From Thermococcus gorgonarius (GTDB lineage: Archaea; Methanobacteriota_B; Thermococci; Thermococcales; Thermococcaceae), in contig NZ_CP014855.1 of assembly GCF_002214385.1 (NCBI RefSeq), positions 1,364,001 to 1,428,000 on the forward strand: a stretch of DNA of 64,000 bases, written 5' to 3'. Made by a program: the position numbers and the translations under genes. Positions 34,858 to 39,448 of the stretch are shown here, in pieces (positions within the stretch are counted from its first letter, which is position 1; every line of letters begins with the position of its first letter). The notes under the pieces are model-generated. The model was not told the origin of the DNA. It made no database searches and saw only the letters and a program-made list of their open reading frames with translations.

Positions 34858-35904
34858 CTAATTAAGGTTTTGGTTCTTCCTGAGACCCTCTGGTTCGGGG
34901 TAGTAATACATTATGCCCTCTTTTACGAAAAAGTACACGCCAGAACTTTCATCGTATATGACCCTTTCGTTCATGTCTATCGCCGCGTTTACGAGGTCTT
35001 CGAGCGTATCGGCCCGTATTTTGATGTACGGGACAAAGTTCTCAAGGCGCCCCCTGCTTATCCACTTCCTGTACTTCCTCTCCTGTTCGATGTGTTCCAG
35101 GAACTCTTCAGGGATTTCCATCTTTCTATTCCCGAACCAAAGTCCTAGTGAAAGCACCCCGCCCACGGCAGAGACCAGAGCAAGAGTCTTGTATGCTGTG
35201 CGCTTTTTCTGGTTGACTCGAACGGTGTAGGGAACTTTTTTTGACGTCGTCATGGTGGAGTTTTGGGAGTCGCCCTTTATCGAGTAGAACCCCTGGTAGG
35301 GAAAGGTTATCTCACCCCTTAACTTTTGGTTGCCCTTCACCGGGATGCCGTCCACAGTGCCGGAGTAACTGACTTCCCCGATTACATCAACTCCCGCACT
35401 TTCCTTCGGGAGCCTCAGGTAGGAGCTTGCCGCTTCAAGCTGTCTGTAGAGATCCGTTACGTTTAGCGTTATGGAGTCGCTGAAGCCACTCCCACTCCCG
35501 CTTTTGGAGAGAGTCGCGTACGTGGCCTCAAATATTCGGTCTTTGTCGTATGCGATGTAGTACACCACCTTCAGCGTTCTGTTGAACTGAAGGTGAACGT
35601 TCCTGCCAGAAACGTTGAAAGAGAACTCCAGCCTGCTCTCAGGAAACACATCCACAGGGTATATTGGAAGGGAGACCAGAGAGCCCTCCGGCCAGAGGGG
35701 ATTGCTCTCACCGACAATGCCCTTTCCATTGACCTGTCCCATCCAGGAGTAGAGGTCCTGGGTAACGGTTCTCGTTTTGTGGAGGCTGGTAGGGGTCGTC
35801 AGATATGCGTGGGCCGAGTAGAGAGCAATCAGAAACAGGAACACCGCGAGGGGCACTCCGTATTTCCTGAAAAAGAAACCCGAGCTATGCCCTCCGGGTG
35901 ACAT
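34858..35904 (-). CDS. DUF5305-type membrane protein of the TasA-like operon
   Basis: 348 aa. An N-terminal membrane helix (GVPLAVFLFLIALYSAHAYL) is followed by an external beta-rich domain of about 220 residues with N-glycosylation-like sites. A second helix (TLALVSAVGGVLSLGLWF) and a small cytoplasmic domain end the protein. From memory this matches DUF5305 proteins, which in archaea are often encoded beside signal peptidase I. GGAGGAGG precedes the ATG. It overlaps the peptidase gene by 20 bases and is the last operon gene, so it may be an anchor or export factor for the fibre proteins. Confidence 0.82.
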   Translation of the reverse strand: MSPGGHSSGFFFRKYGVPLAVFLFLIALYSAHAYLTTPTSLHKTRTVTQDLYSWMGQVNGKGIVGESNPLWPEGSLVSLPIYPVDVFPESRLEFSFNVSGRNVHLQFNRTLKVVYYIAYDKDRIFEATYATLSKSGSGSGFSDSITLNVTDLYRQLEAASSYLRLPKESAGVDVIGEVSYSGTVDGIPVKGNQKLRGEITFPYQGFYSIKGDSQNSTMTTSKKVPYTVRVNQKKRTAYKTLALVSAVGGVLSLGLWFGNRKMEIPEEFLEHIEQERKYRKWISRGRLENFVPYIKIRADTLEDLVNAAIDMNERVIYDESSGVYFFVKEGIMYYYPEPEGLRKNQNLN

Positions 35905-36802
35905 ACTTATTCCTCCTCCGAACGATTCTAAAGTTTGGTTCCTCCTTTAACCAGAGGGGGAACGCCAATATAGTTATGGCTAGGGATAGTATAAGGTTGA
36001 GCCCTCTTAGTATAAAAGGGTTGACCTCGTAGAGGCGCACTACCCACATTACCGGGAGAACCGAGTTAACCGCGTAGTCATAATCCCCCACGAGTTCCTC
36101 CCCAGGCCGAATCAGTTCGTAATCCGGAACTCCTCTCCTGAGAACAAGGACTGGGAGCCTTCCGGTGTTTCTACCGTCCTCAATGGAAGGGGACAGCAAG
36201 AGAGTGAAGAATATCAGGGACACCAGAAACACTCCTCCAAGCCTTGGAAACAGCACGACCTCCCTTGATCTCGCCCTCACGAGGGAGAGCCTGATCAGCT
36301 GCCGGTCCAGTTTGGGGGAGTAGTGGAGGATCTTGGGGAGCTCGGTAAGGACAACGGCCATTCCAGGAACCAGAATCGTGAAGAGGTAGAAAAGAAACCT
36401 TGCCCTCTTGTCGGGGTTGTGCCGGGTCAGGAAGCCGAGCTTGGGTATCGAGAAAACCGCCTTTCCGTAAACGTTCTCTTGCGGAACCAGAAAGGGATCT
36501 TCATCGCCGTTGTTGTCACCCTTGGTCTTGAAATAGCGCGTCCCGTTCTCCTCAACGATATCAACCACGCGGTGGGTCACGAAGGTCGTCTCGTCTTTCG
36601 AGTTGGGCGGGTGAAAGGCCACGACGTCCCCAACCTCAACCTGCGCCGGGTCTGTTTTCTCGAGCAGAACTATATCGCCGGGGTTGAAGTAGGGAATCAT
36701 TGAGCCGCTCAGAACAACCATGGGAGTGAGCCTCGTGAGGTAGGGAATGACCGGAAGGAGGAGTAGGATGATAACCAGGAGAATAATCGAACGGATCTTC
36801 AC
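35885..36802 (-). CDS. Signal peptidase I, archaeal SipW-like, with extra membrane segments
   Basis: 305 aa from a GTG at 36802 placed four bases after the preceding stop; a longer ORF would overlap that gene. After the first helix the nucleophile lies in SGSMIPYFNPGD (Ser34). The archaeal His replaces the bacterial Lys in VTHRVV (His77), and KGDNNGDED holds the acidic residues. The catalytic part ends near 125. The rest adds at least three hydrophobic segments and a soluble loop, unlike the short general peptidase. Position suggests it processes the three SipW-type precursors encoded upstream. Confidence 0.88.
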   Translation of the reverse strand: MKIRSIILLVIILLLLPVIPYLTRLTPMVVLSGSMIPYFNPGDIVLLEKTDPAQVEVGDVVAFHPPNSKDETTFVTHRVVDIVEENGTRYFKTKGDNNGDEDPFLVPQENVYGKAVFSIPKLGFLTRHNPDKRARFLFYLFTILVPGMAVVLTELPKILHYSPKLDRQLIRLSLVRARSREVVLFPRLGGVFLVSLIFFTLLLSPSIEDGRNTGRLPVLVLRRGVPDYELIRPGEELVGDYDYAVNSVLPVMWVVRLYEVNPFILRGLNLILSLAITILAFPLWLKEEPNFRIVRRRNKYVTRRA

Positions 36803-36806
36803 ACCC

Positions 36807-37409
36807 TCACCCCCCGAGTCTGAAGCTGATGGTTCTGGTGTAGTTCCCGTCAAAAAAGAACGTTATCGTGAAGGAGTAGCTCTCCCTGAGCTCCATCCCC
36901 TTGAATTCGAAGGCTATCGGGTACCATATCCCTTCCTTGAGCATCTTATTCACCGTGAAGACCGCGGGGGAGGTCTGGCCTATTCTCCCGATCCTGCAGC
37001 ACCCTATCCAGAACCTCTCCAGCTCTCCTCCACCGCTCCAGCTGATTGAGACTTTCCTCAGGGTGGCGTTGCCTCCGACGGAGCGGATCCATACGTTGGT
37101 GAGAACCCCCTTGCACGAGGATCCCCAGCACTCCGTTCCGCCGCGAGGGGGCCCTATCACTTCGCCTGCTGTGTCCTTCCAGCCCCGAGGAGTCACGTTA
37201 AAGCTCAAATCACCCCGACTTCCCCCGCAGTGCAGAACCAGAATGGGATTGGGGTATAGAACCTCAACTTCAGGCGTCCAAGTCCCGGCCTTTATGGTTA
37301 CGTTCTCTATTGTTTCGATGTCAGAGAAGTAGGAAAAGGTGCCATAGTAGGAGTAGAGGGAGAGAACTGATGATATAATGACTATCAATGTTAACAGTCT
37401 CTTCATCAT
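36807..37409 (-). CDS. Secreted Cys-containing protein with SipW-type signal peptide
   Basis: 200 aa. A hydrophobic N-terminus (LLTLIVIISSVLSLYSYYG) runs into TFSYFSDIETIENVTIKAGTW, the same pattern as in the TasA-like proteins upstream (YFSDxE, then AGT). The mature part has about five cysteines (HCGG, CWGSSC, CC), rare in secreted proteins of this group and likely paired, and a beta-rich C-terminus. The ATG overlaps the preceding stop. It could be a minor or terminal fibre subunit; that is inference. Confidence 0.78.
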   Translation of the reverse strand: MMKRLLTLIVIISSVLSLYSYYGTFSYFSDIETIENVTIKAGTWTPEVEVLYPNPILVLHCGGSRGDLSFNVTPRGWKDTAGEVIGPPRGGTECWGSSCKGVLTNVWIRSVGGNATLRKVSISWSGGGELERFWIGCCRIGRIGQTSPAVFTVNKMLKEGIWYPIAFEFKGMELRESYSFTITFFFDGNYTRTISFRLGG

Positions 37410-37624
37410 TTCACCACCAGGCCGGTAATGGCCACTATGAGCAGTCCAACGGCAGACACTTCCAGTGCTATTTTAGCCGCGAGATCAACTACTTGCACAA
37501 GGGTTGTTAAGAGCCCCGTCTGGGGATCCGCCGGCGAGCCACTTTTCGGCATTCCGGGGAGGAGCAGCCATATGGCAGCAGCAGTCATCAGGAACAATAA
37601 AAGAAAGATCAGACGGGCCCTCAT
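37406..37624 (-). CDS. Small two-helix membrane protein
   Basis: 72 aa with two hydrophobic segments (LIFLLLFLMTAAAIWLLL and EVSAVGLLIVAITGLVV) joined by a polar loop. No family recognised. ATG at 37624 with GTGAGG upstream; a GTG at 37633 overlapping the previous stop is the alternative. It sits in the middle of the TasA-like operon, overlapping the next gene by four bases. Confidence 0.72.
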   Translation of the reverse strand: MRARLIFLLLFLMTAAAIWLLLPGMPKSGSPADPQTGLLTTLVQVVDLAAKIALEVSAVGLLIVAITGLVVK

Positions 37625-37629
37625 CGGCC

Positions 37630-38334
37630 TCACTCAGGCAGCACTGGAACTGGATATTCTGTGAACCCATAGGGGCTCAGTATCTGCTGGCTTGAATCCT
37701 GCGCTAGTGCAACGTGGACGATTATCTCGCACACATCGCCCTGCCAGTAGTTCTGAGGCTGTCCGGTGTCCTCTATCCAGAGATACATGTCAAACTGCCC
37801 ATATTTTTTATTCCATAGTGCGTCATTCACATCTCCGTTTACCCTGGGCGGCGCGGGGAGGTTGTACACGTTGTATACTACATCTCCCAGCGCAGCGCCA
37901 TTCTCTAGCTGAAGTGTCGCCGAAGGGCCAATCCACTCTTCTCTGTACTGCATGTTCACTTTAATTTCCTGCGGAAGGTCTCCTACACCGTTTACTTCAT
38001 CCGGTTCTGGGCCCCATGCCCGGCCGTTATCGATGTTGCCATCGTCGTCTTCCCAGCACACAAGCTCAATTGCTATCTCCACGTGGTCGGCATCAACCGT
38101 GCCGTTGTTTATTATTTTGATATCCCCATTATACAATGACCCCGGAACGGCGTTGGGAATAAACCACTGCCCATTTGCTACAGGAACACCATCGGTCAGC
38201 ACGAGGTCAAGCGTTCCCAGCTCTATGGAGTTTCCTTCACTGGTCTCGGTGTCCTGGTAAATTGCCCACGTGCCGTAGCCGGCCCCTGCAAAGACAAGGC
38301 CGATGAGGAGGAGAGCCACTGCAATGCTTTTCAT
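37630..38334 (-). CDS. TasA/camelysin-like secreted protein (second subunit)
   Basis: 234 aa. SipW-dependent signal peptide: MKSIAVALLLIGLVFAGAGYG, then TWAIYQDTETSEGNSIELG with TLDL. The mature domain is a beta-sandwich-like sequence with Asp/Asn/Gly loops (CWEDDDGNIDNG) and a C-terminal strand. GGGGTGA is six bases before the ATG. Family knowledge: TasA-type proteins assemble into extracellular fibres by donor-strand exchange after signal removal. It is larger and less regular than its upstream neighbour. Confidence 0.85.
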   Translation of the reverse strand: MKSIAVALLLIGLVFAGAGYGTWAIYQDTETSEGNSIELGTLDLVLTDGVPVANGQWFIPNAVPGSLYNGDIKIINNGTVDADHVEIAIELVCWEDDDGNIDNGRAWGPEPDEVNGVGDLPQEIKVNMQYREEWIGPSATLQLENGAALGDVVYNVYNLPAPPRVNGDVNDALWNKKYGQFDMYLWIEDTGQPQNYWQGDVCEIIVHVALAQDSSQQILSPYGFTEYPVPVLPE

Positions 38335-38367
38335 CTCTGGTCACCCCTGTAAAGAATTAAAATGGGG

Positions 38368-38955
38368 TCAGCTCTGCTCGAGGTAGAACTCGATGTCAAA
38401 CTGTATCTTGTCACCCTGTATTCCGTTGTCGGCGTTCGGGTCAATCGTCCACGTAATGGTAAGGGTCTCGCTAGTCCCGTGGGCGAGAGCTCCAAGGTCA
38501 ATCTGCTGGTTCTCAAGCTCACTCAGGGATACATGGGTGTCTCCGTTGGTGTCATAGCTGCTCAGATCGACAGGGTTTCCGCCCAGGGTCATCGTGATGT
38601 AGGTAACATCCCTAAGGTCGCTCGTTCCAGTAATGTCAGGGTCTGTAGAGGAGCCTTCAGTAGTATAAACATAGTTCTTAAATGTCGCGGTTAGGGTTCC
38701 GTCAACGCTTCCTGCATTGTGTATGGTTATGTCCCAGCTGTCCGAGTCGCCAGGGGCAATGCCGTCTCCTCCAACTCCTCCAACAACTTGAGATGTGTGG
38801 AACTGCCCGACTCCACTAACTTCCAGATCAAGGGTTCCAGCCTGGATGTAGTTCCCGCTGCTCGTCTCGGTGTCGCTGAAGTAGGCCCAAGTTCCTGCTC
38901 CTACTCCTACGGCCACAAGGCCGACCAACAACATAGCAACAAACACGGCTTTCAT
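38368..38955 (-). CDS. TasA/camelysin-like secreted protein (probable main fibre subunit)
   Basis: 195 aa, first gene of the operon. Its signal peptide (about 1-22) continues GTWAYFSDTETSSGNYIQAG, the classic SipW-substrate pattern, followed by TLDLEV. The mature part is Gly/Ser/Thr/Asp-rich and beta-predicted, without Cys. Residues 135-146 (DTNGDTHVSLSE) fit a 12-residue EF-hand calcium loop. GGAGGT stands seven bases before the ATG. First position, strong SD and a well-formed promoter suggest high expression. Confidence 0.88.
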   Translation of the reverse strand: MKAVFVAMLLVGLVAVGVGAGTWAYFSDTETSSGNYIQAGTLDLEVSGVGQFHTSQVVGGVGGDGIAPGDSDSWDITIHNAGSVDGTLTATFKNYVYTTEGSSTDPDITGTSDLRDVTYITMTLGGNPVDLSSYDTNGDTHVSLSELENQQIDLGALAHGTSETLTITWTIDPNADNGIQGDKIQFDIEFYLEQS

Positions 38956-38974
38956 CTTTCATACCTCCTTGTAC

Positions 38975-38996
38975 GGGGGTATCCCCCGATGGATAC
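38975..38996. promoter_or_regulatory. Overlapping inverted repeats at the TasA-like operon start site
   Basis: GGGGG-TAT-CCCCC (38975-38987) is a perfect inverted repeat. GTATCC (38979-38984) also pairs with GGATAC (38991-38996), so the two pairings exclude each other. The predicted transcript start (about 38989) falls inside. It may be an operator or a leader hairpin next to the Shine-Dalgarno site. Confidence 0.5.
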
Positions 38997-39010
38997 TGTG
39001 GTTCAATTGG

Positions 39011-39019
39011 GTATTTAAG
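39011..39019 (-). promoter_or_regulatory. TATA element of the TasA-like operon
   Basis: Minus strand CTTAAATAC, giving a predicted start near 38989 and a leader of about 34 bases that contains GGAGGT. Confidence 0.55.
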
Positions 39020-39030
39020 CAAAAAGAAAA

Positions 39031-39110
39031 GAGATTACTAAGGTGAGTTACTAAAGTGAATTAAGGTGGCAAAATCAGAAACTTAGTTCCGGAACAGAGT
39101 TACTGGTAAC
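39031..39110. promoter_or_regulatory. Repeat and palindrome array upstream of the TasA-like promoter
   Basis: Two 13-base tandem repeats, TTACTAAGGTGAG (39035-39047) and TTACTAAAGTGAA (39048-39060), are followed by a partial third. Next come the perfect palindrome GTTCCGGAAC (39086-39095) and GTTAC-TG-GTAAC (39099-39110). All lie just upstream of the TATA element, where archaeal activators bind. TTACTAAA recurs at 39572-39579 upstream of the winged-helix gene. Confidence 0.55.
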
Positions 39111-39190: not shown

Positions 39191-39448
39191 TCAAAGGAAA
39201 GCGTCCAGATCCCTTGCTATTTCGAAGAACTTCCTCAGGAAGGCTTGTCCCTTTTCAGTTGAGACAAAAACTTTCCTCCCATTCCGTTCTGCTTCCTGGA
39301 TATAACCACTTTCCAGGAGGTGTTCCAGATACTTGGTGGCTAACTTAAAGTTCAGGTTTGCCCTGTAAACTATCTGGGTTTTGGTGGCCCCGACACCGTT
39401 CGTGGACCTGATTATGTCAGCTATAATCTCAACTTTCGACCTTCTCAT
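39191..39448 (-). CDS. Small winged-helix transcriptional regulator
   Basis: 85 aa. Helix-turn-helix with GATKTQIVYRANLNFKLATKY as helices 2-3, then a beta wing (LESGYIQEAERNGRKVFVS) and a C-terminal helix (AFLRKFFEIARDLDAFL). It fits the archaeal single-domain wHTH proteins that repress or activate neighbouring genes. ATG at 39448. It lies upstream of and in line with the TasA-like operon, with its own promoter, so it is the prime candidate to bind the TTACTAA repeats. Confidence 0.85.
   Translation of the reverse strand: MRRSKVEIIADIIRSTNGVGATKTQIVYRANLNFKLATKYLEHLLESGYIQEAERNGRKVFVSTEKGQAFLRKFFEIARDLDAFL

Follow-up and report, generated by a model that had tools for sequence, protein, structure and literature searches.

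A six-gene operon in Thermococcus gorgonarius probably produces a surface fiber of the TasA/AbpA type, built by donor-strand complementation and served by a membrane platform that processes its subunits. The operon lies in a 64,000-nucleotide stretch of the genome (the window; G000:C1:1364001-1428000), which consists of a single contig of 1,674,122 base pairs (bp). It encodes two secreted proteins of the TasA/camelysin family (TasA1 and TasA2), a small membrane protein, a secreted cysteine-containing protein (the Cys protein), a signal peptidase I, and a membrane protein with a DUF5305 domain. Several computational observations point to a fiber: the gene set itself, the family membership of its products, fold similarity, exclusive SipW-type signals, a conserved gene order, and strict co-occurrence across genomes.

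The six minus-strand open reading frames span positions 38955 to 34858 of the window, and neighbors are separated by short gaps or overlap (coordinates in Table 1). The gap between TasA1 and TasA2 is 33 bp; the later junctions measure a few bases or are overlaps, including one of 4 bp between the genes of the small membrane protein and the Cys protein and one of 20 bp between those of the peptidase and the DUF5305 protein. The alaS gene follows ∼37 bp past the DUF5305 end of the operon. A first-pass annotation, made from the DNA letters, had described six tightly packed minus-strand genes for two TasA/camelysin-like secreted proteins, a Cys-containing third protein with the same signal pattern, a 72-residue two-helix membrane protein, a signal peptidase I with a Ser/His site, and a DUF5305-like membrane protein. 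All six frames are present, and each of these assignments agrees with the results given below and in Table 1.

TasA1 and TasA2 Belong to the TasA Family

Both proteins exceed the gathering cut-off of PF12389 (22.5 bits), a camelysin family that also matches Bacillus subtilis among the control genomes, and both carry SipW-type signals (TIGR04088; cut-off 19 bits). Among the matches listed for the whole genome, this signal occurs in TasA1, TasA2, and the Cys protein only. A TasA1 profile built from nine relatives retrieves B. subtilis TasA from the Protein Data Bank (PDB; 8aur, E = 1.1e-4; 5of1, E = 1.6e-4), and the alignment is best on the AGTLDL strand and in the PG...NxGS region; a second stretch, the C-terminal QG strand, aligns weakly and insignificantly. 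The same profile matches archaeal AbpX weakly (E = 0.014-0.018; entries 9sj2 and 9rhp, AbpX by name) and leaves AbpA unmatched by sequence. In a profile-profile comparison TasA1 and TasA2 match over their whole length (probability 99.7), and it is solely through this match that TasA2 is tied to the TasA fold. Cys93 and Cys202 of TasA2 are invariant in the alignment of its relatives.

The structure of mature TasA1 was predicted using a four-row alignment of sequences from the window and related loci (predicted local distance difference test score [pLDDT] 71; residues 1 through 14 flexible). The first-pass annotation had proposed such a model as a check on the relation to TasA and AbpA, and for TasA1 the relation was found: Foldseek ranks the TasA fiber first (8aur, probability 1.00, E = 1.1e-6), with AbpA, the bundling pilus of Pyrobaculum, in second place (7ueg, E = 5.3e-4), and many of the matches that follow are donor-strand pilins. 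The donor strand of TasA comprises residues 28 through 38 at the mature N terminus, and its deletion cripples the fibers (PMC9674648). A conserved segment of TasA1, AYFSDTETSSGN, sits where TasA has these residues and is flexible in the model; this putative donor-strand region is the most conserved part of the protein. Mature TasA1 is predicted to begin at A24 (AYFSDTETSSGNYIQAGTLDL), and TasA1 is the probable main fiber subunit.

The Cys Protein and the Membrane Components

The Cys protein scores 13.3 bits against PF12389, below the cut-off, and its profile match to TasA1 and TasA2 is confined to the first ∼40 residues, which cover the signal and the N-terminal strand region. Judged by sequence, it has the signal and a donor-strand-like segment in common with the two TasA proteins, and not demonstrably the TasA fold. 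Because TapA likewise has an N-terminal stretch resembling the TasA donor strand (PMC9674648), the Cys protein is by analogy a candidate initiating, capping, or anchoring subunit. The small membrane protein has an alternative GTG start at 37633, which would give 75 residues; relatives of the operon carry proteins of 82 to 117 residues with hydrophobic ends at this position.

The signal peptidase passes the cut-offs of PF10502 (22.9 bits) and TIGR02228 (archaeal signal peptidase I; 51.85 bits) and has the expected Ser (VVLSGSM), His (VTHRVV), and Asp (KGDNNGDEDP) motifs. It is about twice the size of the housekeeping enzyme, a 156-residue paralog encoded elsewhere in the genome (305 residues vs. 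156). In its C-terminal extension, hydropathy analysis predicts an extracytoplasmic stretch flanked by two additional helices, and this extension is common to all aligned peptidases from modules of this kind when compared with the housekeeping enzyme. Judged by its context, this archaeal signal peptidase I may work like SipW. A weak TIGR02228 match at 1276137 was set aside, as it has no fiber-like neighbors.

The score of the DUF5305 protein is above the PF17231 cut-off of 29 bits. By hydropathy it has an N-terminal helix, an extracytoplasmic β-rich domain, a helix at residues 240 through 258, and a small cytoplasmic domain. The predicted structure was too poor to read (pLDDT 61; predicted template modeling score 0.32); its best PDB match was an unrelated protein (E = 2.6e-3).

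Conservation in Thermococcaceae

We surveyed 94 Thermococcaceae genomes, defining DUF5305 of the operon type by E values below 1e-28. Eleven genomes encode it, and these same 11, with no others, encode the Cys protein. In every one of them the genes are found immediately upstream of alaS, and all six genes are present in 10; the remaining genome (G076) lacks both TasA genes. As the order is kept in ten other genomes, including the one without TasA genes, the arrangement is not due to chance. Identity of the Cys protein to the window copy falls to 22% while gene order is retained, so the shared order does not simply reflect recent common descent. Gene order, which the first-pass annotation had put forward as a test, is therefore conserved in other Thermococcaceae, beside alaS.

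In G076 the winged-helix gene that otherwise precedes the operon is also gone, what is left of the small membrane protein, its tail, is apparently fused to an upstream coiled-coil reading frame, and the genes of the Cys protein and the peptidase are separated by a transposase-like stretch. Two further genomes (G007 and G027) retain operon fragments beside alaS. These patterns are most simply read as repeated losses of an old operon whose site is fixed.

Scanning a genome collection with the single TasA1 sequence gave no relatives, and scanning it with a DUF5305 alignment gave one further named locus (in a Thermococcus sp. metagenome-assembled genome); relatives were therefore taken from the whole-genome searches. 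Many PF12389 matches in relatives were flagged with one internal TGA, a pattern resembling conserved readthrough; at L071, the flagged locus that was read, the stop is just the natural gene end.

Proposed Assembly and Alternative Readings

In the assembly pathway that we propose, TasA1, TasA2, and probably the Cys protein would leave the cell via Sec with their SipW-type signals, and the dedicated membrane peptidase would cut just ahead of the conserved AYFSDTET... segment. The freed N-terminal strand would then complete the β-sandwich of the next subunit by donor-strand complementation, giving extracellular polymerization. TasA1, whose gene comes first after the promoter, would be the principal subunit, with TasA2 as a second one. 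The Cys protein, whose donor-strand-like N terminus is joined to a different body, would act like TapA in starting, capping, or anchoring the fiber, and the extended peptidase, the 72-residue protein, and the DUF5305 protein may together form a membrane site for processing and for the first strand exchange. From the observations above we infer the cleavage site, polymerization, subunit roles, anchoring, the existence of a platform, and control by the winged-helix protein. The earlier suggestion of a fuller assembly machine than the bacterial one holds as a conserved gene set and not as a demonstrated mechanism.

Several observations weigh against a fiber of this kind. Confidence in the TasA1 model, which derives from an alignment of four rows, is medium, and the model's TM-scores (template modeling scores) to the TasA fiber are only 0.42 to 0.55. 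TasA2 found no match in its own PDB search. The Cys protein has no similarity to the TasA1 and TasA2 profiles past the N terminus, and no operon protein matches the TapA family in Pfam or NCBIfam at E values up to 1. The peptidase scores 79.2 bits against NF046067, the Bacillus SipW equivalog, for which the cut-off is 190. The roles given to the DUF5305 and 72-residue proteins are without structural support.

The operon might instead encode TasA-family surface or secreted proteins that act as monomers or short complexes, for example as an adhesin or an envelope decoration, with the peptidase being merely their processing enzyme. A solo TasA-family gene in the same genome (G000:C1:4349-4954; L009), which has no local peptidase or DUF5305 gene, speaks for this, as do PF12389 proteins similar in size to its product in most genomes of the family, indicating that the family can work outside such an operon; nor is a Foldseek likeness proof of polymerization. 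We nevertheless consider this reading unlikely, given that the top fold match of TasA1 is the fiber form of TasA and the second the AbpA pilus, that the donor-strand region is the best-conserved part of TasA1, and that the operon is far fuller than the solo gene. The latter encodes 201 residues (PF12389, 26 bits) and lies between polysaccharide-related genes and a cation transporter.

Two other functions were considered. PF12389 is named after the camelysin metallo-endopeptidase, and the secreted proteins could accordingly be metallopeptidases (Peptidase_M73) matured by a dedicated signal peptidase; the HExxH motif is absent from all six operon proteins, and TasA1 matches TasA, a structural fiber protein, by both profile and fold, which makes an enzymatic role very improbable. 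TasA itself was first described as an antimicrobial protein. That TasA1 and TasA2 are secreted to antagonize competitors is just as hard to credit, since the operon has no obvious immunity gene, its two membrane proteins and extended peptidase suit surface assembly better, and fold and gene content indicate fibers.

Upstream Region and Candidate Regulation

A winged-helix gene lies directly upstream of TasA1 in nine of the ten related loci; the interval of the first-pass annotation omits this conserved gene. From its position we guess that the protein regulates the operon. The tandem repeat upstream of the TATA-like box is a candidate operator that such a regulator may bind, and paired GTTCCGTAAC repeats occur at the corresponding position in several related loci. 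Relatives also have hairpins at the place of the GC-rich hairpin near the mRNA 5′ end; their sequences differ and their folding z-scores range from -3.7 to +0.2, some being weak. The 5′ hairpin is possibly an mRNA stabilizer.

Table 1. Features of the operon and its upstream region (window positions)
Feature	Position	Strand	Description
Winged-helix protein (HTH_45 / Sso10a family)	39191..39448	-	PF14947 79.5 bits; NF053610 84.2 bits (cut-off 60)
Tandem repeat TTAGTAAC / TTAGTAAT	39034..39054	-	13 bp apart; upstream of TATA box; candidate operator
TATA-like box CTTAAATA	39012..39019	-	Most related loci have it too (visual comparison of upstream sequences)
GC-rich hairpin CGGGGGATACCCCCG	38974..38988	-	At the inferred mRNA 5′ end, just before Shine-Dalgarno GGAGG (38968-38964)
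TasA1	38368..38955	-	TasA/camelysin-family secreted protein; 195 residues, no Cys; PF12389 39.8 bits; TIGR04088 46.6 bits
TasA2	37630..38334	-	Second TasA-family secreted protein; 234 residues; PF12389 29.9 bits; TIGR04088 20.0 bits
Small membrane protein	37406..37624	-	72 residues, two helices; ATG start; hydrophobic segments 5-23 and 52-70
Cys protein	36807..37409	-	200 residues; five Cys; four sequons; SipW-type signal (TIGR04088 23.5 bits), then TasA-like N-terminal strand
Dedicated signal peptidase I	35885..36802	-	GTG start; 305 residues; PF10502 29.2 bits; TIGR02228 102.1 bits
DUF5305 protein	34858..35904	-	348 residues; PF17231 99.7 bits

Peptidase-DUF5305 Sets with Other Subunits

A second set in the same genome (G000:C1:1234196-1238437; L008 6197-10438) comprises two DUF1102 proteins, a 367-residue signal peptidase, a DUF11-like protein, and a DUF5305 protein, and it too is preceded by a winged-helix gene. 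Eight other loci of the family (L052-L058 and L067) hold sets related to this DUF1102 type, one of which (L054) shows no DUF1102 subunits. At L058 (3772-4838; genome G073) two overlapping frames take the place of one peptidase gene, the reason being either a sequencing error or a genuine frameshift. G073 also has a three-gene set of a TasA-like protein, a peptidase, and a DUF5305 protein (L049), and two other genomes of the class combine a secreted protein with an extended peptidase and DUF5305 (L064 and L065).

The first-pass annotation had also pointed to Halobacteria. A related module that pairs a signal peptidase with DUF5305 does occur there, with subunits that differ: on three haloarchaeal plasmids the signal peptidase I gene adjoins that of DUF5305 or is separated from it by one gene, and hypothetical or CARDB proteins are encoded next to the pair. 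On plasmid pNMAG01 of Natrialba magadii (L074 2487-6474) a CARDB-domain protein, a signal peptidase I, and a DUF5305 protein are encoded in a row, an arrangement suggesting that the CARDB protein is a further subunit type sharing the membrane pair. Taken over all wide-flank loci with an intact DUF5305, an extended signal peptidase is encoded within two genes of it in 26 of 26; these loci include the window and the ten operon relatives and are a nonrandom sample, chosen by DUF5305 and not by the peptidase.

The DUF1102 subunits have no related match among PDB sequences and match TasA1 weakly, centered on the signal region; we therefore do not class them as TasA proteins. Together with the haloarchaeal subunits, DUF1102-like proteins weakly resemble the fimbrial families TafA and TafE of NCBIfam, below the cut-offs, and as NCBIfam already holds these families, part of the wider pattern may already be described. 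A third possible set in the T. gorgonarius genome (L096 3973-8172; G000:C1 ∼713472-717671) encodes a 217-residue secreted protein (AFAYRWMQGT...), a 521-residue protein, a 394-residue extended peptidase-like protein, and a 253-residue membrane protein. Its peptidase-like protein has SSGSM and, where HRV is usual, GRV, so that the catalytic His may be missing.

These sets raise a broader possibility, which we hold tentatively and with some doubt: the extended peptidase and DUF5305, with small membrane and Cys or DUF11 adaptors, could be a general archaeal machine for assembling donor-strand fibers. It would couple signal cleavage to the first strand exchange, anchor the fiber, and serve TasA-like, DUF1102, and haloarchaeal subunits from Thermococci to Halobacteria.

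Comparison with Known Fiber Systems

Like tapA-sipW-tasA of B. subtilis, the operon brings together TasA-family fiber proteins, SipW-type signals, and a dedicated signal peptidase, and like sipW-calY1-bc1280-calY2 of Bacillus cereus, in which two camelysins and a sipW gene share one operon (PMC10151520), it has two camelysins. Unlike the Bacillus operons, it adds a Cys protein with its own body, the 72-residue two-helix protein, and DUF5305, and its peptidase has an extra extracytoplasmic part and falls below the SipW equivalog cut-off. AbpA of Pyrobaculum calidifontis and ABPx of Pyrodictium abyssi are archaeal TasA-like donor-strand fibers, linked to TasA1 by fold (7ueg) and by sequence profile (AbpX), respectively, at the E values given above; the present system differs in archaeal lineage and has no detectable sequence match to AbpA. 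The Sulfolobus thread filament (Saci_0406, 7pnb) is likewise an archaeal donor-strand-complemented β-sandwich fiber processed by signal peptidase I, and its fold match to TasA1 is weak (E = 0.02). It differs in being unmatched by sequence in these searches, stabilized by isopeptide bonds, and encoded in another gene cluster. The DUF1102/TafA-TafE-like modules of Thermococcaceae, other members of the class, and Halobacteria also unite secreted subunits, an extended peptidase, and DUF5305 in one set. Their DUF1102-like subunits are not TasA proteins by family score, and no TIGR04088 signal was reported in those tested; in the Thermococcaceae modules a DUF11-like protein replaces the Cys protein.

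The presence of camelysins in archaea has been noted before (PMC10151520). Literature searches found nothing on DUF5305, DUF1102, or SipW in Thermococcales; those on TafA and AbpX returned unrelated papers, save one mention of ABPx; and the searchable literature yielded no description of an operon that combines DUF5305 and an extended peptidase with a Cys protein and a small membrane protein. TasA-like archaeal fibers as such are already known.

Such fibers are known from Bacillus and from a few archaeal structures. For the question of how archaea process, start, and anchor them, the operon offers a defined set of components, found repeatedly at the same chromosomal position. It also suggests that several fimbria-like systems of archaea have a membrane part in common, namely DUF5305, which belongs to a family without an assigned function, together with the extended peptidase.

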